NCBI RefSeq assembly: GCF_016786325.1
Contig: NZ_JADWYU010000155.1
Span: 1-41,826, forward strand
Length of the DNA: 41,826 nt
Direction of reading: 5' to 3'
Origin: Frankia nepalensis
GTDB lineage: Bacteria; Actinomycetota; Actinomycetes; Frankiales; Frankiaceae
Shown: positions 2,599 to 19,886 of the stretch, in pieces
Layout of the letters: every line of letters starts with the position of its first letter
Numbering within the stretch: position 1 is the first letter of the stretch
The notes under the pieces: model-generated
Database searches by the model: none
What the model saw: only the letters and a program-made list of their open reading frames with translations
What the model was told of the DNA's origin: nothing
Program-made: the position numbers and the translations under genes

Positions 2599-2869
2599 CG
2601 CGGGTCTCCTCAGCTGTGGCTGGAAGTACTCTTCCGAACGCCCATGTTTCGGTCACCCGCCAGTCGTCGGACGTTCACGGGCCAGCGCCCGCCATCTGGC
2701 GACGGGACCCGCGCATGGGTCCCGCCTGTCCGCCGGTCGGCACGCGCGGCGACGTCGGGGCGGCCTGCCGCCCCGGTGCCGCCATCGTCCGGGTGTGGCG
2801 GCGGCACCGGGAGACGCCGTAACCTCCTGGTGTGCGAGCGGCTGCCGGGGCGAGCGGCGGCGGGACGCG

Positions 2870-4093
2870 ATGAAGGGCTTGCTGCTGCGGCTGTCCGCGC
2901 TCGACGCGGACGCGGAGAGCGCGGTTCGGGTGATCGCGTACTTCGACGCGCTGGTGGCCGCTCGGGCGGACGCGGCCTCCCTGGTCCGCGCTACCGCGGC
3001 GCTCGCCGAGTGCGGCGCCGGGCTGGCGACACCGGACACCGGCCGGGTGCGGTACAGCGAGGACGGTATGCCCCGCTCGGCGGACGGATCCACCGAGCCC
3101 AAGCACGTATCCGGGTGGATGAGCCTGGGCGGCGGCGGCCGGGTGTGGCTGGAGCGGCCCGGCCCGCCTCGCCCGTTGGACGAGCTCGTTCTGGAACGCA
3201 TGGCGATCGCCGCGCAGGCCATCAATACGAGGGCTCGCCCGTCGCTGCACATCGCCGACCCGGCTCTGGTGGAACTGGTCCTCTCGGACCGGGAGTCGGC
3301 CGAGGACCGGGCGCGCGCGCTGCGTCTGCTGGGACTGCTGCCCGACGTGACGGTGCGGGCGATGGCGATCTCCCTGCCGGCCGGGATGGACGTCGGGGTT
3401 CAGGCGGTCGCCCTGATGGCCCGGGGCCGGCTCGGGCGACGTACCGTCCGGGTAGCGGTCCTGGGCCGGATGGCGGCGGTGCTCCTCCAGGACCGGACCG
3501 CGGCGGCGAGCCCGTCCGGCGACCTGCGCGTCGCGCTCGCCGAACGCCTGTCCGGGCGGACGAGCACGACCGCGGACGACCAGCCGGCCGAGACCTCGGC
3601 CGGCGGACAGCAGGTGAGCGCGGGCTTCGACTGGTCGACCGGTCCCTGGGACGGCGCCGCGCAGCCGCGGGTCGGAATCGGCGGGCCGGTCGACGGGCTC
3701 GACGCCCGGCATTCCTGGCGGCAGGCGTGCCTCGCGCTGCGGTTCGCCGCCCCGGGCTCCGCCGACTCGCTGGTCGTCGACTACTCGGAACTCGGCTCGG
3801 TCGCGCTGCTCGCCGACGTCCCAGTCGACCGGCTGCGGTCCAATCCGGACGTCCGCGCGCTCGACGGTCTCGCCCAGGCGCCGTCCGGCGCCGCCGACAT
3901 CGCCGTCCTCGAGGCTTACTGCCAGGCGAACTCGTTACGGCAGGCGGCCGCCGTGCTGCACCTGCATCACAGTTCCGTCGCCGCCAGGGTGGCGCATCTG
4001 GAGGACGTCCTCGGATGGCGCCTCGATGAACCCGAGGGGCGCTTCCGCGCCCGCCTGGCACTCCTGGCTCGCCGCCTCGCGACCGCGCTCTAG
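2870..4093 (+). CDS. PucR/CdaR-type helix-turn-helix transcriptional regulator
   Basis: The 407-residue protein has a C-terminal PucR-type helix-turn-helix of about 60 residues. Its first helix is in YCQANSLRQAAAVLHLHHSS and is followed by VAARVAHLEDVLGWRLDEPEGRFRARLALLARRL-like sequence, a pattern typical of this family. The N-terminal 330 residues are rich in Ala, Arg and Asp and show no sensor domain I recognise. PucR-type regulators often activate neighbouring catabolic genes in response to a metabolite. The divergent esterase and lipoprotein genes are the obvious candidate targets; this is inference. The ATG at 2870 was chosen because translation further upstream gives low-complexity sequence. 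A start 25 codons earlier (2795) is open. Confidence 0.75.
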   Translation: MKGLLLRLSALDADAESAVRVIAYFDALVAARADAASLVRATAALAECGAGLATPDTGRVRYSEDGMPRSADGSTEPKHVSGWMSLGGGGRVWLERPGPPRPLDELVLERMAIAAQAINTRARPSLHIADPALVELVLSDRESAEDRARALRLLGLLPDVTVRAMAISLPAGMDVGVQAVALMARGRLGRRTVRVAVLGRMAAVLLQDRTAAASPSGDLRVALAERLSGRTSTTADDQPAETSAGGQQVSAGFDWSTGPWDGAAQPRVGIGGPVDGLDARHSWRQACLALRFAAPGSADSLVVDYSELGSVALLADVPVDRLRSNPDVRALDGLAQAPSGAADIAVLEAYCQANSLRQAAAVLHLHHSSVAARVAHLEDVLGWRLDEPEGRFRARLALLARRLATAL

Positions 4094-5050: not shown

Positions 5051-5464
5051 TCAGCCGTCGGACGCGGCGGGCTGGGTGGGCGCGGCCGGCTGGGGACCGT
5101 TGGCACCCGTGGTGCCGGGCGGGACGTAGCCGACGCCGGCGAGCAGCCTCGAGCGGCGGCGGCCCTGGGCCGGCCGCGCGGGGCGGCGGTCGACCGGCGC
5201 CGGCTCCCGTGGTGTCACACCGGCCACGATGCCCTCGGCCATGCCGTACAGCAGCGGCAGCGCGCCCGCGACCACCCCGCCGGTGCGGTTGATGTGGTCG
5301 AGGCCTGGATCGATCAGTTTGGCGTTGGTGAGGACCTTGACCGCGAGGTCGCGGCATTCCTCCAGGTTGGAGGCGATGCGGGTCAGCTGCCCGCCGACGA
5401 CGAACAGGTAGCCCGCCAGCACGCCGATGAGCAGGACGATGACGATCACCGAGAGGGCGACCAT
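5051..5464 (-). CDS. Small membrane protein, last gene of the coxG-linked cluster
   Basis: The 137-residue protein starts with a single transmembrane helix at about residues 3-22, then a helical stretch (LTRIASNLEECRDLAVKVL) and a conserved-looking segment DPGLDHINRTGGVVAGALPLLYGMAEGIV. The tail is rich in Arg, Pro and Ala and is probably disordered. I do not recognise a family. The ATG lies 3 nt after the preceding stop with GAGGAG overlapping it, so translation is probably coupled. With the four genes before it, it forms a run of short one-helix proteins behind the CO dehydrogenase genes. A role in anchoring or electron transfer for that enzyme is only inferred from position. Confidence 0.7.
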   Translation of the reverse strand: MVALSVIVIVLLIGVLAGYLFVVGGQLTRIASNLEECRDLAVKVLTNAKLIDPGLDHINRTGGVVAGALPLLYGMAEGIVAGVTPREPAPVDRRPARPAQGRRRSRLLAGVGYVPPGTTGANGPQPAAPTQPAASDG

Positions 5465-5467
5465 GGC

Positions 5468-5779
5468 TCAGCTCCTCACCTTCGCCAGGACCCGTCCGAG
5501 GAACAGGTGGTGCTCCAGGCCCTCGGCGAGCACCGCCTCGACCTGCTCGGCCGTCCGCTCGATCAGCGCGGTGTCCGCCGTGTTCGCGGCGGCCGCCTCG
5601 AGATGACCCTTGATCGAGACCACGCGCCGGTCGATCACGCGCACCAGCAGCACGAGGATCGTGAGCAGGGCCGCGACCACGAGGACGATCGCGAAACCGC
5701 CGATGATCGCTCCCCACCACAGGCCCCGCTGCGTCGAGGTGAGCGCCAGCACCGTTGTGCCCACGTCAGCTGTGTCCAC
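5468..5779 (-). CDS. Small single-pass membrane protein with AAANTA helix motif
   Basis: The 103-residue protein has a transmembrane helix at about residues 20-47 followed by a soluble helical tail. The tail contains GHLEAAAANTADTALIERT, which matches ESLAKAAENTAALGQLNTT in the preceding protein at corresponding positions, so the two are probably paralogues. The GTG at 5779 is one base after the preceding TGA and has GGGAGG 5 nt before it, a strong sign of translational coupling. The function is unknown; the gene is part of the cox-linked block of small membrane proteins. Confidence 0.7.
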   Translation of the reverse strand: MDTADVGTTVLALTSTQRGLWWGAIIGGFAIVLVVAALLTILVLLVRVIDRRVVSIKGHLEAAAANTADTALIERTAEQVEAVLAEGLEHHLFLGRVLAKVRS

Positions 5780-5780
5780 G

Positions 5781-6059
5781 TCAGCCTCCCAGCCGTTCGC
5801 GCCCGCGCTTCAGGCCGGCGACGATGACCTGCGCGTGGTCGATCGTCGTGTTCAGCTGGCCGAGCGCCGCCGTGTTCTCGGCGGCCTTCGCCAGCGACTC
5901 GTCGATCCGCGCGGCCTCGGCACCGATGCGGCGCGCCAGCACCAGGATCGGGACGACCAGGGCGACCACGACCAGCACGACAACGCCCGTGATCACATAG
6001 CCGGTCACCCAGCCGGCGATGCCGGTGTCCACGGCCTCCACCGCGAGCACGCTGTTCAC
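5781..6059 (-). CDS. Small single-pass membrane protein, paralogue of the next gene
   Basis: The 92-residue protein has a transmembrane helix at about residues 18-42 and an amphipathic helical tail with an AAENTA motif. The tail resembles that of the 103-residue protein encoded immediately downstream. The start is a GTG at 6059 with a weak GGTGAAGG-type ribosome site. The 115 bp upstream, back to the stop of the 75-residue gene, contain a possible 30-codon frame. The function is unknown. Charged residues just inside the helix (ARRIGAEAARID) suggest that the tail is cytoplasmic. Confidence 0.65.
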   Translation of the reverse strand: MNSVLAVEAVDTGIAGWVTGYVITGVVVLVVVALVVPILVLARRIGAEAARIDESLAKAAENTAALGQLNTTIDHAQVIVAGLKRGRERLGG

Positions 6060-6063
6060 GCCT

Positions 6064-6156
6064 TCACCGCCTTATCTGCCGAGTCGGGCGGGTGAGCTCG
6101 TACATCCGCATGCTCCCTCTGTCGCCGGCGCGGCCGAGGGCGCGAAGAAATCTCAC
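6064..6156 (-). CDS. Possible 30-residue basic peptide between two small membrane-protein genes
   Basis: A GTG at 6156 is preceded by GGGAGG with 7-nt spacing and opens a 30-codon frame that ends 4 nt before the next gene's GTG. It begins 18 nt after the previous stop and so fills the only large gap in the cluster. The predicted peptide is rich in Arg and has no membrane helix. Several codons are rare for this genome (AGA, ATA, AGG, CTT), which argues against a conserved protein. It could also be a leader that couples translation. Confidence 0.3.
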   Translation of the reverse strand: MRFLRALGRAGDRGSMRMYELTRPTRQIRR

Positions 6157-6174
6157 GTCCGCGCCTCCCATTGG

Positions 6175-6402
6175 CTAGATCTGTTCGCAGAAGTCGCGGA
6201 CGGGCTTGAGACTGGCGTTCACGGACGGCACCACGGTCGGGACCGGGCTGGTCCGGTCGGCCACGACCCGCACGCCGAGCGCCACCGACCCGAGGGTCCG
6301 CCGGATCGCCTTCAGGTGGAAGGCGACCCGGAACAGTCCCAGGGCGGCGGCGACGACGATCAGCGCGGTGATCGCGAGGGTCATCCAGGCGACGGCTGGC
6401 AC
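6175..6402 (-). CDS. Small single-pass membrane protein (75 residues)
   Basis: The protein has one transmembrane helix at about residues 7-27, then a short basic linker and a helical segment ending in PTVVPSVNASLKPVRDFCEQI-like sequence. The GTG at 6402 follows a run of AGGAGG units, an unusually strong ribosome site. It starts 33 bp after the stop of the 84-residue gene. The layout (helix, basic hinge, LxxIR helix) parallels that of the preceding protein, so distant homology is likely. I do not recognise the family. Position links it to the CO dehydrogenase cluster. Confidence 0.68.
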   Translation of the reverse strand: MPAVAWMTLAITALIVVAAALGLFRVAFHLKAIRRTLGSVALGVRVVADRTSPVPTVVPSVNASLKPVRDFCEQI

Positions 6403-6435
6403 CTTCTCCTCCTCCTGTTCGTCAGCCGCGCGGCC

Positions 6436-6690
6436 TCAGCCGAGCAGCTTCGCGACCGACCCGCCGTAGCGGGCCGCGCCGACCGCGATGTCGTGGACGG
6501 TTTGGTCGGTCGTCGCCAGCGACGACGGGGTGCGCTCCAGCGTGGCGGCGAGCGCGCCACCGCCGGCGAGAATGTCGTCCGAGGCGGCGCGGATCCGCTC
6601 CAGCGCGGCGAGTACCCGGTTCAGGAGCGCCACGAGTACCGGGACGACCACCACAAGCAGCACGATGTTGCCAATCCACCACAGCGTCAC
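6436..6690 (-). CDS. Small single-pass membrane protein, first of five after coxG
   Basis: The 84-residue protein has a transmembrane helix at about residues 5-24 and a helical tail (RVLAALERIRAASDDILAGG) followed by a Ser/Thr-rich part. The GTG at 6690 is preferred over an ATG 12 codons upstream because AGGAGG lies 10 nt before it, inside the longer reading. It is 73 bp downstream of coxG on the same strand with no terminator visible between them, so it is probably cotranscribed. The function is unknown. Confidence 0.68.
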   Translation of the reverse strand: MTLWWIGNIVLLVVVVPVLVALLNRVLAALERIRAASDDILAGGGALAATLERTPSSLATTDQTVHDIAVGAARYGGSVAKLLG

Positions 6691-6763: not shown

Positions 6764-7351
6764 TCAGCCTGCGTTCGGCGCGGTGTACGGGACGAAAAAG
6801 CGGCGAAACACGCGGGTCAGCGCCATGCGCAGCGCGCGCAGGCCGATCGCCAGACCGCTCGCCGGTTTCACCCCGGCGACCGCGCTGAGGTCAAGACCTC
6901 GTTCGATGGCGTCGACGCGGCCCCGCATGTTGGTCGCGAAGTCACGCAGGAGCACGGCGGTCACGTCGGCGACCATGCCGCGGCCGTACTGCGCGGCGGC
7001 ACCGGACAGCTGCAGGTCCATGTCCACGTCGACTTTGGTTCCGGCGCCCAGCGGGGCGAGCCTGGCGGTCATCCGCATCGCGGCGTTGCCGCGGCCCTTC
7101 TCGTCCGCGCCGGCCGCGTCGACGACCATCCGCCGCCCGGCCGCGTCGCGCTCCAGGATCGAGGCGGTGCCGGCGAAACTCAGCCGCACCGGGCCCATCC
7201 GGATCAGCACGTTGCCGGCGTACCTGTCGTCCCCGAGGTCCTGGGTGAGTTCCGCGCCCGGCAGGCAGGCCGCGACGCCCGGGACATCCTGGAAGAACGC
7301 CCAGATCCTGTCGAGCGGCTCGGAGACCTCGAAATCCTGCTTGATCAACAC
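6764..7351 (-). CDS. coxG: CoxG, SRPBCC-fold carbon monoxide dehydrogenase accessory protein
   Basis: The 195-residue protein has the START/SRPBCC fold of the CoxG family. It begins IKQDFEVSEPLDRIWAFFQDVPGVAACLPGAEL-like, a phrase typical of CoxG, and continues with RMGPVRLSFAGTASILERD. CoxG binds a hydrophobic ligand and, from work on the mycobacterial enzyme, is thought to link CO dehydrogenase to the membrane quinone pool. After the domain, residues 165-190 form a basic and hydrophobic amphipathic tail (ALRMALTRVFRRFFVPY) suited to lying on the membrane. The GTG start at 7351 overlaps the stop of the XdhC gene by one base (TAGTG). Confidence 0.88.
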   Translation of the reverse strand: MLIKQDFEVSEPLDRIWAFFQDVPGVAACLPGAELTQDLGDDRYAGNVLIRMGPVRLSFAGTASILERDAAGRRMVVDAAGADEKGRGNAAMRMTARLAPLGAGTKVDVDMDLQLSGAAAQYGRGMVADVTAVLLRDFATNMRGRVDAIERGLDLSAVAGVKPASGLAIGLRALRMALTRVFRRFFVPYTAPNAG

Positions 7352-8405
7352 TATGCCTCCCTGTGCGCCCCGCGGGCGCCGGCCGCCGCGTCGACGGGCA
7401 GGTACGCGGACGGGTCCTTCTCGAACCTCGAGCGGCAGCCGGCGCAGCAGAAGTAGTAGGTGGTGCCCGCGTGCTCGAACGGATGGCCGCTCGCGGCCGC
7501 GGCCACCGTCATCCCGCAGACCGGGTCGACCACCTCCACGGCACCGGCCATCGGCAGGAGGGCTCGCCCCCGCGGGTGCCCCTCCGGCCGTGGGAGAGCC
7601 AGCTCGCCGGCGGCGCGCCGCCGGACGAGCTCGGCGAGCACCGAGACCGCGATCTCGCGGTGCGTGGTGTGGCCGAGGTCGAGGCCGACCGGGACGTGCA
7701 CCGCCTCGAGCAGGTCGCGCGCCACTCCCCGCTCGGCGAGGTAGCCGAGCACCGACGCGCCCCGGCGGCGGGAGGCCACCAGCCCGACGTACGCGGGGGC
7801 CGCGGCGACCGCGGTCGCGAGTGCCTCCTCGTCCCCGTGCCCCTGGGTGGCGACGATGACGACGCCGCGCCGGTCGACGTCGGCCGAGGTGAAGTGCTCC
7901 ACCGCCACCAGCTCGGCGCGCCAGCCCAGCGCCTTGCCGAGATCGACGAGGGTCCTGGCCATCGGGGACCGGCCGACGACGACCAGGCTGGGCACCGGGA
8001 TGACCGGCTCGATGTAGATCTCCAGGGCGCCCTCGCTCTGGCAGGCGATCGGCGTGACCTCGATGCCGTCAGGGATGGCCCCGCCGAACTGCTCCGGGCC
8101 GCCCAGCAGCAGCAGTCTCGGCGCGCCCTCGGCGATCACGTCCCGGGCCGCGCGGATCACGGCCGGCTCGGCGCAGGCGCCGCCGATCCAGCCGGACAGC
8201 TGGCCGTCGGCCGTGATGATGGCCCGCGAGCCCTGCTGCCCCGAGGAGGGCGCGTGGCGCCAGACGACGGTGGCCAGCGCGAACTGTTCGCCGCGCGCCG
8301 CCAGCTCGCCGGCGCGGCCGAGGACCTCCCAGCCCTCGACCACCGCGTCGGGGACGCGGGTGTCCGCTGGCCCAGGCTCGGGCTGGTGCCCGTCCCCGGA
8401 CATCA

Positions 8406-8406
<1 letters not shown>
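7351..8406 (-). CDS. XdhC/CoxI-family molybdenum-cofactor maturation protein fused to a C-terminal YHS domain
   Basis: The 351-residue protein has an N-terminal XdhC_CoxI domain with TVVWRHAPSSGQQGSRAII and GWIGGACAEP. A Rossmann-like XdhC C-terminal domain follows (VVVGRSPMARTLVDLGKALG, ATQGHGDEEAL, YVGLVASRRR). Residues 293-337 form a YHS domain with DPVCGM (Cys297) and YYFCCAGC (Cys320, 321, 324), the metal-binding pattern found in copper and mercury transporters. XdhC proteins protect and sulfurate the cofactor before insertion into molybdenum hydroxylases. The extra YHS domain could carry copper for the Mo-Cu site of form I CO dehydrogenase; this is inference. The ATG at 8406 overlaps the coxL stop (TGATG). 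Confidence 0.87.
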
Positions 8407-10790
<2,384 letters not shown>

Positions 10791-10923: not shown

Positions 10924-11472
10924 TCAGGCGGCCCCGTCGTGGGTCGGCTCCTCACCGCGCAGCTTCGCGGCGGCCCAGAGCACGGCCTTGACGATGTTCT
11001 GGTAACCGGTGCAGCGGCACAGGTTGCCCGACAGCGCCCACCGGATGTCCTCCTCCGTGGGGTTCGGGTTCGCCTTCAGCAGGGCCGTGGCCGCCATCAT
11101 CATTCCGGGCGTGCAGAACCCGCACTGCAGCCCGTGCTCGTCCTTGAAGCCCTCCTGCACGGGGGAGAGCTCGCTCATCGACGACAGGCCCTCCACTGTG
11201 GTCACCTCGTGGCCGTCGGCCTGCACGGCGAGCATCGTGCAGCTCTTGATTGGCTCTCCGTCGAACAGCACCGTGCACGCGCCACAGTTGGTGGTGTCAC
11301 AGCCCGTGTGTGTGCCGGTGAGCCGCAGGCCCTGCCGGAGCAGGTGCGCCAGCAGCAGCCGCGGCTCCACCTCGGCGACGCGACGCTGACCGTTGACCGT
11401 GATCGCCACCCGCCGGGTCGGGACCTCGGCCGCCGCGGGATCCTCGACGATCTCCTCGAACAGTGGGCTCAT
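10924..11472 (-). CDS. coxS: Aerobic carbon monoxide dehydrogenase small subunit, two [2Fe-2S] clusters
   Basis: The 182-residue iron-sulfur subunit passes electrons from CoxL to CoxM. A plant-ferredoxin-type cluster is held by Cys58, 63, 66 and 78 ([16 protein letters not shown]). The second, proximal cluster is held by Cys117, 120, 152 and 154 (QCGFCTPGM and [11 protein letters not shown]). All eight ligands are present. The ATG at 11472 follows the coxM stop by 3 bp, so the two are cotranscribed. The first 20 residues are an acidic extension ahead of the usual start of the fold. Confidence 0.96.
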
Positions 11473-11475
11473 CCT

Positions 11476-12351
11476 TCAGGCCGCCCTCTCCGCCGCGCCG
11501 GCGATGTCCCGCAGGATCCGGACCACGAAGGTGCGGATCACGTGCCGCTTGTACTCGACGCTGCCCCGGTGGTCGCGGCGCGGCTGCGCGGCCTGGGCGG
11601 CGAGGTCACCCGCCCGCTCGATCGCCGCGGCGGTCAGTGCCTGCCCGGCCAACGCCTGCTCGGCGTCGAGGGCCGCGATCGTGGACGGGCCGACCCCGCA
11701 CAGCGCGATGCCGGCCCTGGTGACGAGCCCACCCGACAGCTCCACGGCGACCGCGACGCCGGCCGTCGCGAAGTCGCCGACGCGCCGCTCCAGCTTCAGG
11801 TAGCCGCCCGCCGGCGTCCCCTTCGGCGCCGGAATGACCGCCTCGAGGGCGATCTCGTCGTACCTCAGGGCGTTCTCGAACGGGCCCGTGGCGAACTGGC
11901 GGATCGGGATCTCCCGAACGCCGTCCGGCCCCGCCGCGACCACCCGGCCGTCGAGCGCGGTGACCGCGGCGGCCCAGTCGCCCTGCGGGTCCGCGTGGCA
12001 CAGCGAACCGACCAGCGTCCCCCGGTTGCGCACCAGCGGGTCGGCGATCAGCGGTGCCGCGGCGGCCATCGTCGGCTGCCGCTGGGCGAGGCTTCCGGAG
12101 CGCTCGAGCGTGGCGTGGCGACACAGCGCGCCGACCCGGATCGTGCCGTCCGGCTCGACTCGGTGGTAGTCGAGGCCTGGCAGGTTGTTGATGTCCACGA
12201 GCAGTTCCGGCGCGGCGAAGCGCAGCTTCAGCAGAGGCACCAGGCTCTGCCCGCCGGCGAGCACCTTGGCCTCGCCCTGCCCCTCGTGCAGCAACTTGAT
12301 CGCCTCGGTCAACTCACGCGGCGCCTCGTAGCGGAATCGAGAGGGATACAC
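11476..12351 (-). CDS. coxM: Aerobic carbon monoxide dehydrogenase medium subunit, FAD-binding
   Basis: The 291-residue flavoprotein takes electrons from CoxS and passes them to the quinone pool. The FAD motifs AGGQS (32-36) and TLVGSLCHADP (112-122) are in their expected places for this family. The GTG at 12351 is chosen because GGGAG lies 7 nt upstream, it follows the previous stop by one base, and the resulting start (MYPSRFRYEAPRELTEAI) matches the usual CoxM N-terminus. An in-frame ATG at 12387 would overlap the preceding gene by 35 bp. Confidence 0.94.
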   Translation of the reverse strand: MYPSRFRYEAPRELTEAIKLLHEGQGEAKVLAGGQSLVPLLKLRFAAPELLVDINNLPGLDYHRVEPDGTIRVGALCRHATLERSGSLAQRQPTMAAAAPLIADPLVRNRGTLVGSLCHADPQGDWAAAVTALDGRVVAAGPDGVREIPIRQFATGPFENALRYDEIALEAVIPAPKGTPAGGYLKLERRVGDFATAGVAVAVELSGGLVTRAGIALCGVGPSTIAALDAEQALAGQALTAAAIERAGDLAAQAAQPRRDHRGSVEYKRHVIRTFVVRILRDIAGAAERAA

Positions 12352-12352
12352 G

Positions 12353-12682
12353 TCATCGCTCCCGGGAGGACGCGCGGCCCGCGTCATCGCTGGCCGGGGC
12401 CGGGCCGGCGTCCCCGGTGACCGAGGGCGGGCCGGGGACGGCGAGCGGGTCCGGGACGGCGACCGGCAGCGCCTCGTGGTCGGGGTTCGGGCGGGGGTGC
12501 TGGTGCGGCGGCCACGGGCCCTGCACCGGCTGCCCGGAAACCTTCAGGAAGTCCACGAGTTCGGGCCAGGCCCGGACGGTGGGGCTCTTGCCCGGCTGGT
12601 TGTGCCCGACGTCCGGCTGGCTCTCGAACAACTCGTACATCCGGGGGTTGCCTCGGCTGTGCCCGCTCGACTCGACGGCCAT
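12353..12682 (-). CDS. Unrecognised 109-residue protein, first gene of the cox cluster
   Basis: The frame has strong GC at third positions, a GGAGAAGG ribosome site 9 nt before its ATG, and a stop one base before the coxM GTG, so it looks like a real, coupled gene. The N-terminal half (FESQPDVGHNQPGKSP, then VRAWPELVDFLKVSGQPVQG) could fold into a small unit. The C-terminal half is rich in Pro, Ala and Asp and is probably disordered. There is no membrane helix, signal peptide or cysteine. I know no family for it. Position suggests a factor for CO dehydrogenase assembly or expression. Confidence 0.6.
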   Translation of the reverse strand: MAVESSGHSRGNPRMYELFESQPDVGHNQPGKSPTVRAWPELVDFLKVSGQPVQGPWPPHQHPRPNPDHEALPVAVPDPLAVPGPPSVTGDAGPAPASDDAGRASSRER

Positions 12683-15404: not shown

Positions 15405-16160
15405 CTACGGCAGGGCGGCGACGATGTCGGTGACCGCCTTGCGGGCGCCGGTGTAGAAGGGGGTCTCCAGCCGGGTGTGCCGGCGGGCGGCGCTGGCGCG
15501 CAGGTGGCGGATGCAGTCGACGATCCGGTGCAGCTGGTCCGCCTCGAAGGCGAGCAGCCACTCGTAGTCGCCGAGGCCGAACGCGGACACCGTGTTGGCC
15601 CGCACGTCCTCGTACTCCCGGCCCATGATCCCGTGCTCGGCGAGCATCCCGCGCCGCTCGTAGTCCGGCAGCAGGTACCACTCCAGCGACCGGTTGAACG
15701 GGTAGACGCAGACGTAGGGACGCGGGTCCTCACGCCGGACGTAGGCCGGGATGTGGCTGCGGTTGAACTCGGCCGGCCGGTGCAGGCCGACGGCCGACCA
15801 GACCGGCTCGAGGTGCGCGCCGAGGGTGGTCTGCCGGAAGCGCTGGTAGGTCTCCTGCAGCAGGTCCGGGTCGGGGGAGGTCCACCAGATCATCACGTCG
15901 GCGTCCGCGCGGTAGCCGGAGATCTCGTAGACGCCGCGGGTGTAGACGTCCTTGGCGAGCGCGCCGTCGAGCAGGGCGTCGACCTCGGCCGCCACGGCGG
16001 AGCGGTCGGCGGGCAGCGGGCGGCGCGCGGCGAACACCGACCAGCTGGTGTAAAGCAGCTCCGCGTTCAGGTCACGGGCGGACTTCGCCTCGGCCGCCGC
16101 CGCGGGGCGTGCCGCCTCCGGCTCCGGCTGGGTCGCGGGCACAGGCTGGGACTCGGACAT
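15405..16160 (-). CDS. hemQ: Coproheme decarboxylase (HemQ, chlorite dismutase family)
   Basis: The 251-residue protein makes the last step of the coproporphyrin-dependent route: it decarboxylates coproheme twice, with peroxide, to give heme b. Family marks are RGVYEISGYRADADVMIWW, the HIPAYVRREDPRPYVCVYPF region, RSLEWYLLP and MLAEHG with His176 as the likely heme ligand. The first 30 residues are a disordered Pro/Glu/Ala tail. The ATG at 16160 lies 4 bp after the stop of the oxidase gene, so the two are cotranscribed. It is also called chdC. Confidence 0.93.
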   Translation of the reverse strand: MSESQPVPATQPEPEAARPAAAAEAKSARDLNAELLYTSWSVFAARRPLPADRSAVAAEVDALLDGALAKDVYTRGVYEISGYRADADVMIWWTSPDPDLLQETYQRFRQTTLGAHLEPVWSAVGLHRPAEFNRSHIPAYVRREDPRPYVCVYPFNRSLEWYLLPDYERRGMLAEHGIMGREYEDVRANTVSAFGLGDYEWLLAFEADQLHRIVDCIRHLRASAARRHTRLETPFYTGARKAVTDIVAALP

Positions 16161-16164
16161 AGGT

Positions 16165-17652
16165 CTATTCTTCCTCGCGACTCGCGTGCTGCTGGCTGAG
16201 CTCTTCCCGGGGTCCCCGCCGGGCGGCGACCGAACCCACGACCGCGTCGTCGACCGCCCCCAGCACCGCCTCCGCGGCCGCCTCGCCGGAGCGGATGCAG
16301 GCCGGGATGCCGACGCCGTCGTAGCCGGCGCCGGCGAGCGCCAGGCCCGGCGGCAGCGCCCGGCGCACCATGGCGACCCGCTCCAGGTGCCCGGGCAGGT
16401 ACTGCGGCAGCCCCCCGCCCCACCGGCTGACCCGGCTCGCGACCGGGCGGGCCGACAGCCCGGTGGCGTGCGCGATCTCGGCGGCGACGACACCGGCGAG
16501 CTCCACGTCGGAGCGCCGCAGGTCCTGCTCGGCGCCGGCTCGCCCGACGCTCGCGCGCACCACCCGCAACGGGCCGCCGGCGGACACGTGCGGCCACTTG
16601 GCCGACAGGTAGGTGGCGGCCTTGATGGTGGCCCGCTCACGCGCGGGCACCAGGAAGCCGCTGCCGGCGGGCAGGTCGACATCCCGGTAGACCAGGGTGA
16701 CCAGCCCGATGGAGGCGTACGGCACGCCGGCCAGCGGCGCGGCGGCGTGCGGCGCGATCGGGGTGAGCAGGTCCCGGGCGACGCCGGCGGGCACCGCGAG
16801 GATCACCGCGTCGGCGTCCAGCGAGGCGTTGCCGCGGGGACCGGTGACAACGGCACCGATGTCGCCAGCCGCGCCGGCCTCGTCGACGTCGACCCGCCAG
16901 CCGCCCTCGACCCGGGCGAGCCGCCGGGCGATCATTCCCGTGCGCACGGTGGCGCCGCTGGCCTCGGCGACCCGGGCGGCGAACGTGCCCAGCCCGCCGC
17001 GCACGGTGGCGAACACCGGCGACGGCCCTGTCGCGGCGACCGGCGCGGTCCTGGCCCGCACCCGGTGGGCGCCCAGCAGCAGCGAGCGGTCCTCGGCCAG
17101 GATCGGCACCAACTGGGGAACGGTGGCCCGCAGCGACAGCGCGTCGGCGCGGCCGGCGTAGACCCCGCCCAGCAGCGGGTCGACGAGCCGGTCGACGATC
17201 TGGCGGCCGACCCGGGCGCCGACGTACTCGCCGACCGTCGGGTCGTCGGGCAGCTTCGTGCGCGGCAGCGCCAGATCCGCGGCGGCGCGCAGGAGCCCTC
17301 GCGGGGACAGCACCCGGGACCGGACCAGCCCGAGCGCGTCGGTCGGCACCCCGAGCAGCGTGTTCGGCGGGATCGGCCGGAGCCTCCCGTTGATCCACAG
17401 CGACGCCGAGGTGGTTGCCGGGTGGACGATGTCGTGCCCGAGGCCGACCTGGCGGGCGAGCCGCTGCCCCTCGGGGACCCGGGCAAGGAACGACTCGGCG
17501 CCCTCCTCGAGGTCGAGCCCCTCGAACGGGGTGGTACGCAGCTTGCCGCCGACGCGGGCGCCGGCCTCCAGCACCGTCACCTCGGCCTTGCCAGCCAGCG
17601 CGTGCGCCGCGGCGAGCCCCGCGATGCCCCCTCCGACGATCACCACTCGCAC
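16165..17652 (-). CDS. hemY: Coproporphyrinogen III oxidase / protoporphyrinogen oxidase, FAD-dependent
   Basis: The 495-residue flavoprotein removes six electrons from the porphyrinogen, using oxygen. It has the dinucleotide-binding start VRVVIVGGGIAGLAAAHALA followed by VLEAGARVGGKLRT. It also has the family signature DRLVDPLLGGVYAGRADALS and a C-terminal FAD motif (GLALAGAGYDGVGIPACIRSG region). Because hemQ follows and actinobacteria use the coproporphyrin route, the substrate is most likely coproporphyrinogen III (symbol cgoX; also annotated hemG). The GTG at 17652 has GGAGGA about 10 nt upstream; earlier in-frame codons give unrelated sequence. Confidence 0.92.
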   Translation of the reverse strand: MRVVIVGGGIAGLAAAHALAGKAEVTVLEAGARVGGKLRTTPFEGLDLEEGAESFLARVPEGQRLARQVGLGHDIVHPATTSASLWINGRLRPIPPNTLLGVPTDALGLVRSRVLSPRGLLRAAADLALPRTKLPDDPTVGEYVGARVGRQIVDRLVDPLLGGVYAGRADALSLRATVPQLVPILAEDRSLLLGAHRVRARTAPVAATGPSPVFATVRGGLGTFAARVAEASGATVRTGMIARRLARVEGGWRVDVDEAGAAGDIGAVVTGPRGNASLDADAVILAVPAGVARDLLTPIAPHAAAPLAGVPYASIGLVTLVYRDVDLPAGSGFLVPARERATIKAATYLSAKWPHVSAGGPLRVVRASVGRAGAEQDLRRSDVELAGVVAAEIAHATGLSARPVASRVSRWGGGLPQYLPGHLERVAMVRRALPPGLALAGAGYDGVGIPACIRSGEAAAEAVLGAVDDAVVGSVAARRGPREELSQQHASREEE

Positions 17653-17758
17653 GTCGTGTCGCTCCTCCGTGCCGGCGGGGACGGGGCCGGCCTGACCCAC
17701 GGACCCGCGCGCTCCCGCGGCGGAGTCGTCCTGTCTCGCGGCGGGGCCGCGTTATCCG

Positions 17759-18943
17759 TCATCCCTCATGGACGAGGTCGACGATGTGGGCGAGCACGCC
17801 CGGATCGGTCTCCGGCAGGACGCCGTGGCCGAGGTTGAAGATGTGGCCCTCGGCCTTCGCGCCGCGCTGCAGCACGTCGCTGACCTTGCCGGCGAGCACG
17901 TCCGGCGGGGCGAACACCGCGGTCGGGTCCAGGTTGCCCTGCACCGCGCGGCCGGGGCCGATCCGGCGGGCGGCCTCGTCGAGCGCGACCCGCCAGTCGA
18001 CGCCGACGACGTCCGCGCCGGCCTCCCCCATCGCCGTGAGCAGCTCGCCGGTGTTCACGCCGAAGTGGATCCTCGGCACCCCGGCGCCCTCGAACGCGCC
18101 CAGCACCTTGGCGCTGTGCGGCGCGACGTAGCGGCGGTAGTCGGCCTCGTCGAGCGCGCCGGCCCAGGAGTCGAACAGCTGCACCGCGTCCACGCCGGCG
18201 TCGACCTGGACCCGCAGGAACCCGATCGTGACGTCCGCGAGGCGGTCGAGCAGCGCGTGCCACAGGTCGGGAGCGGTGTACATGAGCCGCTTGGTCCTGG
18301 CGTGCGTGCGGCTCGGCCCACCCTCGACGAGGTAGCTGGCGAGCGTGAACGGCGCGCCGGCGAAGCCGATCAGCGGGACGTCGCCGAGCTCGGCGAGCAG
18401 CAGCCGCACCGCGTCGTGGATGTAGGGCACGTCGTCCGGCGCGAGCGGGCGCAGCGCCGAGAGCCCCTCGGCGTCGCGGATCGGCTGGGCGACCACCGGG
18501 CCGGTGCCGGCGACGATGTCGATGTCCATGCCGATCGCGACCAGCGGCACGACGATGTCGGAGAAGAAGATCGCCGCGTCCGTCCCGAACCGGCGCACCG
18601 GCTGCAGCGTGATCTCGGTGATGAGCGCGGCGTCCTTGCAGGAGTCGAGCATCGGGACGCCGGCACGCAGGGCCCGGTACTCGGGCAACGCCCTCCCGGC
18701 CTGGCGCATGAACCACACCGGCGCGACGTCGGTCGGCTCCCGGCGAGCGGCGCGCAGCAGCCGCGCGCGCTCGGCCAGCCCCGGCCGGCGCGGACCGGCG
18801 GTGGTCACCGGGCCGGCGGCCGCGGCGCCGCCGGTCACCGTGTCGGCCGCGGCGCCCACACGGCCGCGGCCCTGCTCCGTTCGCTCGCTCATCGCTCCCC
18901 CGCCATCGGCCAGCGACGCCCGGGAACCCTCGCTCGCGCTCAC
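17759..18943 (-). CDS. hemE: Uroporphyrinogen decarboxylase
   Basis: The enzyme turns uroporphyrinogen III into coproporphyrinogen III in the cytoplasm. All family blocks are present: [87 protein letters not shown] and [13 protein letters not shown]. The GTG at 18943 is chosen because GGAG lies 7 nt upstream, giving 394 residues; ATG 18949 is too near that site. An ATG at 18892 (377 residues) is also plausible because the extra residues are low-complexity. It is first of the hemE-hemY-hemQ run, with 106 bp before hemY. A perfect palindrome about 50 bp upstream may control it. Confidence 0.93.
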
Positions 18944-18993
18944 GCCCATGCTCCGATCGTGACACGCGCGGGCGACCGGCGTCGCGTCGCGTC

Positions 18994-19010
18994 TTCTACG
19001 TACCGTAGAA
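18994..19010. promoter_or_regulatory. 7-3-7 palindrome upstream of hemE, candidate operator
   Basis: TTCTACG-TAC-CGTAGAA is a perfect inverted repeat in an AT-richer patch 51 bp before the preferred hemE start. A near copy (CTACG-AGC-CGTAG with the same AA flank) lies upstream of nsrR at 31133-31149. The regulator is not identified from sequence. Confidence 0.5.
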
Positions 19011-19529
19011 ATTACCCCTTCGGCCACCCGGAGGCATGGCGAGGGTCCCTGGAACAGCCCCGCGCGACGAGGGCCGCCCCACCACGCGGGCGGGCGAACG
19101 CCCATCAGGTACCCAACGGGTGGAACAGGAACGGTCGCGACATGTGCCGCGGGCGGCGCACACGTGGTCCGGCCGCGACACGCCGGGGGGAATGCGTGGA
19201 GATCAGCCCTGGTCGTGGCACCGTCTGTGCCGTCCGAATGGGCGCAGAGGGCGCACGTTGTCCCGCCGGGCCAGGCCGGCCCGCGCGCCGCTTTGGGCAG
19301 TTCGTCCCGAACCGCGGCAGTGCCCCGGGGGCTCTCCCCCGCGCCGGGCTCTGACGCCGAGCGCCGCTCGACCAGGGGCCGAGGGAACCGGAGGTGGCCG
19401 TTGTCGCGAGCATCTGGCGCGGACAGCGCCTCGCCGCGTGAGACCCCGGACGCGGCGGCGCGACCCGCATCCGTCAAAGTTCGCGGAAGTGCCGATCGGC
19501 ATCCACAGCCGGCCATAGGAGGTGCGGTC
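19011..19529. other. Gene-free stretch between hemE and the zinc-ribbon gene
   Basis: I see no supported gene in these about 520 bp. Open frames on both strands are Arg/Pro-rich shadows of GC-rich sequence. The region should hold the divergent promoter for the zinc-ribbon gene, but no clear promoter boxes stand out. Confidence 0.35.
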
Positions 19530-19886
19530 ATGCTCCGCGTGCGCGAGCTTGATCAGACCGTTCGTCTGTATTGCCCCGAGTGCGCGGACGAGCGGCCGTT
19601 CGAGCAGCCGGAGTGCCTGGACGGCCACGGCGCCGACTGCCCCGAGCGAGCGTGCGTCGAGTGCGGCGCCGCCGTCCTGGTCGCCCCCCTGACCCAGCTG
19701 GACACCGGCCGTGACGCCCGCGGTGCCCACGCGCCGGACCCGGCCGGCCAGCCGGCGGCGCGGTTGGTCCGCCCGTCGGCCGGGAGCCCGAGCCCGACGG
19801 CGGGCCGGTCGCCCGCCGCGGCCGACGCCCAGCCCGAGCCGCGGCGGAGGGTCGGGGCGGGGCAGGCCCGGCGGTCGCTGGCGTGA
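19530..19886 (+). CDS. Small zinc-ribbon-like protein
   Basis: The 118-residue protein has two Cys pairs, CPEC near residue 15 and CVEC near residue 43, with another Cys in ADCPERAC between them. This suits one zinc-ribbon fold of about 45 residues. The remaining 70 residues are rich in Pro, Ala and Arg and are probably disordered. A perfect TAGGAGGT ribosome site lies 7 nt before the ATG at 19530. Similar short proteins sit near hemE in other actinobacteria, as far as I recall. The function is unknown; it could bind nucleic acid or a protein. Confidence 0.7.

Follow-up and report, generated by a model that had tools for sequence, protein, structure and literature searches.

How soluble trace-gas hydrogenases and CO dehydrogenases hand electrons over to the membrane is an open question in several lineages. 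Among the described proteins that bear comparison with those studied here, Isp1 is a cytochrome b, Isp2 is an iron-sulfur protein, and DUF948 (PF06103) combines one membrane helix with a coiled coil. The genes for Isp1 and Isp2 are said, in the passages of one report that deal with hydrogenase groups 1e and 1g, always to lie between those for the structural subunits (PMC11018855). Form I CO dehydrogenase has a small partner, CoxG, which according to the relevant excerpts of another report deals with menaquinone (PMC13240472). For the mycobacterial hydrogenases Huc and Hhy, the portion of the published account that concerns their operons states that the usual kind of membrane-anchoring electron-transfer subunit was not found (PMC6883350). 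Huc turned out to use HucM, the product of one gene, which forms a peripherally membrane-associated tetramer whose amphipathic helices line a tube thought to carry menaquinone.

The genes described here, m1 to m5, are like hucM encoded with a trace-gas oxidiser, the evidence being gene linkage, with quinone reduction known from the literature on relatives; in contrast to HucM, they number five, and their products have predicted membrane helices. CoxG (PF06240, solved as 8uds) matches the Pfam COXG domain and adjoins the cassette, whereas this domain is absent from m1 to m5 in a Pfam scan and the five also occur without CoxG. As with Isp1 and Isp2, the cassette lies between structural genes in some loci (L145 to L147), but its proteins keep no such ligands. 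Matches to DUF948 all fell under the cut-off, the best for a member of the five families reaching 18.8 bits against 37.2. Profiles of the five families retrieved no Huc chain at E <= 0.1 from a PDB chain library in which Huc entries are present and the large subunit was seen. No such cassette is described in the open-licence literature searched, outside which most subscription papers lie; within that range we found no precedent for m1 to m5 as protein families, nor for a module common to two unrelated metalloenzymes, for which the function proposed below would hold.

Five small genes behind coxG

The window, by which we mean the whole 41,826-nucleotide stretch of Frankia nepalensis DNA analysed (contig NZ_JADWYU010000155.1), carries on its minus strand the order coxM, coxS, coxL, coxF-like gene, coxG and then m1 to m5 (6690-5051), as follows.

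coxM, 11476..12387, minus strand: FAD-binding subunit, from models matched under the cut-off and operon position
coxS, 10924..11472, minus strand: iron-sulfur subunit, from models matched under the cut-off and operon position
coxL, 8406..10790, minus strand: form I large subunit (TIGR02416, 1100 bits, cut-off 991); closest solved relative 8uem
coxF-like, 7351..8406, minus strand: XdhC family, matches under the cut-off; C-terminus with a weak YHS match
coxG, 6764..7351, minus strand: Pfam COXG at 47 bits, over the cut-off; at 195 aa it is longer than the solved relative 8uds (167)
m1, 6436..6690, minus strand: open reading frame for a single-pass membrane protein of 84 aa, GTG start
m2, 6175..6402, minus strand: open reading frame for a single-pass membrane protein of 75 aa, GTG start; m5 paralogue by hhalign
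m3, 5781..6059, minus strand: open reading frame for a single-pass membrane protein of 92 aa, GTG start; m4 paralogue by hhalign
m4, 5468..5779, minus strand: open reading frame for a single-pass membrane protein of 103 aa, GTG start; AlphaFold2 model
m5, 5051..5464, minus strand: open reading frame for a membrane protein of 137 aa, ATG start; closes the five-gene block

The CoxL translation contains AYRCSFR, which we take to be the form I motif. The first-pass annotation had placed five open reading frames of 84, 75, 92, 103 and 137 codons after coxG on the same strand, and all are present. Its remark that most lie within a few bases of each other holds for m3-m4 (1 bp) and m4-m5 (3 bp) but not for coxG-m1 (73 bp), m1-m2 (33 bp) and m2-m3 (115 bp). 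In the named loci, that is, the best 80 of 176 relatives retrieved when named genomes were scanned with m4 as query alignment, the median junctions in order from coxG-m1 to m4-m5 are 12, 12.5, 12, 2 and -4 bp (74 to 80 loci per junction, start codons picked by rule). Conservation in the 80 named loci, together with dN/dS values of 0.18 to 0.46 against a same-genus relative, rules out chance or overlapping reading frames and identifies m1 to m5 as genuine genes. None has a match above cut-off in Pfam or NCBIfam, in agreement with the earlier statement that they belong to no known family. PHROGs, which has no cut-off, gave only a weak coiled-coil match; the best E value there was 0.0015, for m3 against a spanin family. 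The C-terminal m4 sequence EGLEHHLFLGRVLxKVR is invariant in 14 clade-A sequences (clade A is defined below).

In most of the 80 named loci the genes that follow m5 run in the opposite direction, so m5 is probably the last gene of its transcription unit. These opposite-strand genes (loci L034 to L113) fall into clusters encoding a 147-aa protein (67 loci), a protein that is CoxE-like by eye (67), a CoxD-like AAA protein (64), an 81-aa protein (62) and an XdhC-like protein (43). Elsewhere in the window, a gene for a PucR-type helix-turn-helix regulator (2795-4093, plus strand) lies near the end of the cox block, and genes for a chlorite dismutase-family protein, a flavin amine oxidase and uroporphyrinogen decarboxylase form a haem-synthesis neighbourhood (15405-19531, minus strand).

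Linkage to CO dehydrogenases and [NiFe] hydrogenases

A CoxL search found form I relatives in 65 of 393 genomes of the class, in two separate identity bands. Clade A comprises 17 places in 16 genomes at 81-92% CoxL identity, the query's own 100% counted among these, and the second band comprises 51 places at 54-59%. Besides the window, the 16 other clade-A places and five from the second band were examined. All 13 clade-A loci of sufficient length show the order coxG-m1-m2-m3-m4-m5; three end earlier. Across the 393 genomes the m4 profile gave 16 strong matches and one weak match, and the m1 profile gave 19 (15 strong, 1 partial gene and 3 weak). Of the 16 genomes that have clade-A coxL, 15 give a strong m4 match, the exception being G091, whose contig ends inside coxL; in the sixteenth m4 genome, G261, the contig with m4 also bears the end of a clade-A coxL. 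Diverged cassettes may have been missed in this census because the profiles are narrow. Two outliers of the census, G192 and G048 (72% complete), have no CoxL above 60% identity and no HydL at the limits used.

Among the best 80 of 176 named loci, gene order is kept in all 80, all five genes are present in 77, and an m2 gene was called in 80. A same-strand clade-A coxL is found in 71, and the other nine blocks start no more than 1.5 kb from a contig end. Clade-A coxL is therefore present in 71 of 71 named loci on contigs long enough, which bears out the tie to form I coxL that had been put forward for the window. Record titles name Acidimicrobiia, Nitriliruptoraceae, Nocardioides, Kineosporia, Actinomadura, Micromonosporaceae, Nanopelagicales and Frankia, and carriers include Nocardioides soli DSM 105498, Planosporangium flavigriseum TBRC 198, Nocardioides mangrovi GBK3QG-3 and Actinomadura sp. 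DC4. Three cassettes (L106, L087 and L084) lie on contigs whose labels read Bifidobacterium breve, Poseidoniales archaeon and Acidobacteria, which are probably misassigned metagenome contigs. A second coxL of 53-58% identity lies near the clade-A cluster in 8 of the 80 loci (L034, L045, L060, L068, L077, L089, L097 and L112).

The five classic second-band loci have no match to m1 to m4; the proline-rich tail of m5 weakly matches L029 (E 7e-4) and L033 (0.003), and neither these two nor the other classic loci hold a cassette copy in the broad-profile test. That test covered 26 control loci, consisting of 21 other form I CO dehydrogenases and five group 1h-type hydrogenases (one of them from the window's own genome), and found 0 copies, with a best iE of 0.2. 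The absence from all 21 classic form I loci agrees with the view that m1 to m5 stand outside the described cox gene set (coxMSLDEFG). A single change in cassette presence suffices on the CoxL tree (16 rows with it, 21 without it; support 89/91), and the same is true of the HydL tree (13 with it, 5 without it; 100/100). A concatenated tree of cassette proteins groups clade A with the loci of 72% CoxL identity (100/100), the loci of 55% CoxL identity with L116 of the census outlier G192 (100/100), and the hydrogenase loci (82/80).

A broader profile of m1 alone, searched across Actinomycetota, found the family in 32 of 296 genomes. The loci of these carriers were searched with an enzyme protein panel as well as with profiles for coxG and the five families. 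Of the 31 carriers other than the window's own, 10 have coxL in the stretch examined and 1 has coxG only; 14 have structural genes of a hydrogenase there (one of them as a fragment), 3 have only hydrogenase accessory genes, and 3 have no gene of these kinds. Whole-genome searches of seven unclear carriers found CoxL at 69-76% in G566, G507 and G487 and HydL at 54-78% in G638 and G497, and no cassette-type enzyme in G586 (only a 41% CoxL relative) or G624 (81% complete). Stretches and whole-genome searches together thus assign a cassette-type enzyme to 29 of the 31. One further layout is that of L141, where coxM lies 5 kb off, behind MoaC.

The same five-gene set is linked to two enzyme types, with correspondence between them family by family. 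In L114, genes for [NiFe]-hydrogenase small and large subunits have relatives of m3, m4 and m5 on one side and of m1 and m2 on the other. Profiles built from clade A only (85-94 sequences per family) recovered the complete set of five families from ten loci that lie outside clade A (L114, L122, L125, L128, L129, L136, L138, L139, L142 and L143), six of which are hydrogenase loci. The best family differs gene by gene in these ten loci, except for second copies and some longer relatives. The broad profiles had included three outlier loci as seeds; the clade-A-only profiles repeat the assignment without them. In L145, L146 and L147 the order is hydS-m3-m4-m5-m1-m2-hydL, placing the cassette between structural genes, with gaps between cassette genes of -4, 37, 19 and -4 bp in L146. 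L148 and L149 have the same layout, except that m5 is weak in the first and unscored in the second and that the contig of L148 stops short of hydL; across L145 to L149 four families are detected by clade-A-only profiles and m5 is seen only with the broader profile. In L136 and L143, m3-m4-m5-m1-m2 runs directly into coxM-coxS-coxL, and in many hydrogenase loci the set is divided into m1-m2 and m3-m5.

Group 1h identity was rejected for the cassette hydrogenases, since the HydL of L114 scored 441 bits to R. eutropha 5aa5 against 1045 for the other hydrogenase of its own genome. They are only about 40% identical to group 1h and form at least three deep branches (L114, L122, L125, L128, L129, L134, L139 and L144 to L147; one row partial). 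Plasmid copies were also considered and set aside, the 12 HydL and 19 CoxL records all being below 60% identity.

Family relations and predicted topology

The AAxNTA motif is common to m3 and m4, and the suggestion that this pair is paralogous is supported by hhalign (97%, E 1.2e-10; 98.6% with broader alignments). With broad alignments, m2-m5 reached 98.5%, m1-m4 96.8%, m1-m3 94% and m2-m3 80%. The five linked pairs score 35-81, and column-shuffled controls do not exceed 13.6; membrane-helix composition can inflate such scores. The remaining five pairs are weak. The simplest reading of these sequence relations would be that one ancestral protein was duplicated into m1 to m5.

Each window protein was thought to consist of one N-terminal membrane helix and a helical soluble tail. 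Kyte-Doolittle analysis agrees, with one N-terminal hydrophobic stretch in each of the five, and a single stretch is usual among clade-A relatives of m1 (91/91), m2 (85/92), m3 (93/93) and m4 (94/94), but it is found in only 50 of 85 relatives of m5, where a second stretch is frequent. Clade-A proteins have 0.0-0.3 K+R per protein ahead of the helix and 1.7-4.2 in the 20 residues behind it; acidic residues behind the helix are as common as basic ones in m1, m3 and m5. Because basic residues lie behind the helix and not ahead of it, the sequences point to an N-terminus outside and a cytoplasmic tail. No twin-arginine export signal was seen by eye in CoxM, CoxS or CoxL of the window or in HydS of L114, so enzyme and tails would share the cytosol.

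The tails show helical periodicity with a spectral peak at 100-105 degrees. Their moment was reached by 5-15 of 500 permutations for m1, m2, m3 and m5, while the amphipathicity of m4 is not above permutations (150/500). AlphaFold2 predicts two helices for m4 (residues 4-66 and 71-102) with modest confidence (mean pLDDT 75, pTM 0.35), and the best Foldseek hit to this model reached only E 2.7, which gives no known fold. In the PDB chain library, searched with profiles of all five families, m2 and m5 matched the designed coiled coils sc-CC-5-24 (E 1e-6, 29 residues) and sc-apCC-4 (E 4.6e-4), m1 matched tryptophan synthase (E 0.004) and m4 matched a viral membrane helix (E 0.078), all of which were read as helix or heptad composition; m3 had no match.

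Possible roles of the five proteins

CO dehydrogenase and [NiFe] hydrogenase are related neither in their active sites nor in the way they mature. What relatives of both have in common, in the passages of the reports that concern them, is that they are soluble oxidisers feeding the quinone pool (PMC10017518, PMC6883350, PMC13240472). Since the module is common to two such enzymes, it would be best explained as an anchor with quinone access, and we consider it fairly probable that m1 to m5 make up a single membrane module of five different subunits, to which soluble gas oxidisers dock and through which they reach menaquinone. Each protein would cross the membrane once by a helix, with its short N-terminus on the outer side and a helical tail in the cytoplasm, and the tails would jointly build a bundle or stalk at the cytoplasmic face. 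This hetero-oligomeric stalk would dock the soluble oxidiser at the membrane, CoxMSL here and the [NiFe] hydrogenase in other genomes, and the module would give the enzyme, or the carrier CoxG, access to menaquinone. Such a helical, non-catalytic tie between a trace-gas oxidiser and the membrane would resemble HucM in mode of action, though the families differ; for a HucM-like menaquinone tube, the pertinent feature of m1 to m5 is only the tail periodicity above most permutations in four of five families. Several observations speak against this reading. The cassette is absent from the control loci of other form I CO dehydrogenases and group 1h-type hydrogenases, clade A retains CoxG, and the linkage has exceptions, namely the distant coxM of L141, the divided sets of many hydrogenase loci, and the g218 and L130 contexts described below. 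The acidic residues behind the helix in m1, m3 and m5, the tail of m4 and the empty Foldseek search with m4 also weigh against it.

The first-pass annotation had envisaged a membrane platform docking CoxG or CoxM. The platform is plausible and is strengthened by the hydrogenase loci, but docking of CoxG or CoxM cannot be its general role, because the hydrogenase loci examined show no CoxM and no CoxG-profile match. Homologues away from coxL had been named as an observation that would tell against the idea, and the same families do accompany [NiFe] hydrogenases; as these are likewise gas-oxidising enzymes, such homologues broaden the platform idea and do not end it. More tentatively, and as something we hold possible, the five-subunit module, duplicated from one ancestor, may be older than the enzyme lineages that carry it and may work in Actinomycetota as a membrane socket that also conducts quinone and is interchangeable between two unrelated soluble gas oxidisers, CO dehydrogenase and [NiFe] hydrogenase. 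If true, one membrane module for both enzymes would answer the question of electron transfer to the membrane at once for many actinobacteria of soil, freshwater and marine habitats.

The proteins could instead serve as anchor or scaffold only, fixing or clustering the enzyme at the membrane and neither binding nor guiding quinone. This would fit the retention of CoxG in clade A and in L138, L142 and L143, and m1 to m5 have no known quinone-site motif; however, with no CoxG-profile match in the hydrogenase loci, another provider of quinone access would be expected there, and we regard anchoring alone as unlikely. Quite unlikely, too, is a membrane-bound assembly or maturation factor that would hold the apo-enzyme during metal insertion and stay outside the working enzyme. 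Genes for CooC-like, NifU-like and protease proteins adjoin m1-m2 in several hydrogenase loci, coxF adjoins the cassette in many CO dehydrogenase loci, and a CoxD-like AAA gene adjoins m1-m2 in L132, all as a maturation role would have it, but it would then be shared by enzymes that mature by unrelated paths, the 26 control loci have related enzymes and lack the cassette, and in L145 to L147 the cassette sits between structural genes.

That m1 to m5 are general single-pass or coiled-coil proteins, recruited beside a wide range of membrane systems and not specially tied to gas oxidisers, is very improbable given clade-A coxL in 71 of 71 testable named loci, a cassette-type enzyme in 29 of 31 phylum genomes and clean controls (0/26). 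The observations in its favour are the weak, under-cut-off DUF948 matches and two sets in other contexts. In genus g218 (L131, L132 and L140), m1-m2 lies among the housekeeping genes gltX, serA and an aminotransferase gene; three of four genomes of this genus, which includes G546, G507 and G487, have CoxL at 69-73% elsewhere, about 17 kb from m1-m2 in G546. In L130 (8967-15147), four weak m-like genes lie directly ahead of genes for Mrp/Mbh-type antiporter subunits, with no gas enzyme within the 19 kb stretch and three HydL copies in the genome.

The proposal that m1 to m5 pass electrons to quinone is not supported. No Cys is kept across contexts in any of the five families, the m5 family alone having a Cys column (14 of 22 thinned clade-A rows), and the sole kept candidate ligand is one m4 His (residue 90, window 5510-5512) in the soluble tail, present in 24 of 24 thinned clade-A rows and in 20 of 26 ungapped other rows, most hydrogenase cassettes included; these other rows include some from up to seven clade-A loci. 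Of 25 other rows, only 9 retain the His next to it, and m2 His29, invariant in 14 clade-A rows, is not kept across contexts. A haem or iron-sulfur carrier role was rejected in the absence of kept ligands, and features of the Isp1 type (kept His pairs in membrane helices, Cys ligands) were not found in m1 to m5. An electron relay through cofactors held by m1 to m5, for which the m4 His column might speak, is therefore scarcely credible.

Two further observations concern m-like genes. The antiporter of L130 is a possible further partner. Longer m-like proteins of about 190-240 aa, two or three at a time, are encoded beside some cassettes, in L142 (6358-8271), L138 (2752-4865), L128 (4780-6971), L129 (11831-14066) and L131 (10897-12303); they have one membrane helix with basic residues ahead of it, a long repetitive coiled-coil-like sequence and a Cys near the end, and they look like outward-facing stalks of an orientation opposite to that of m1 to m5.
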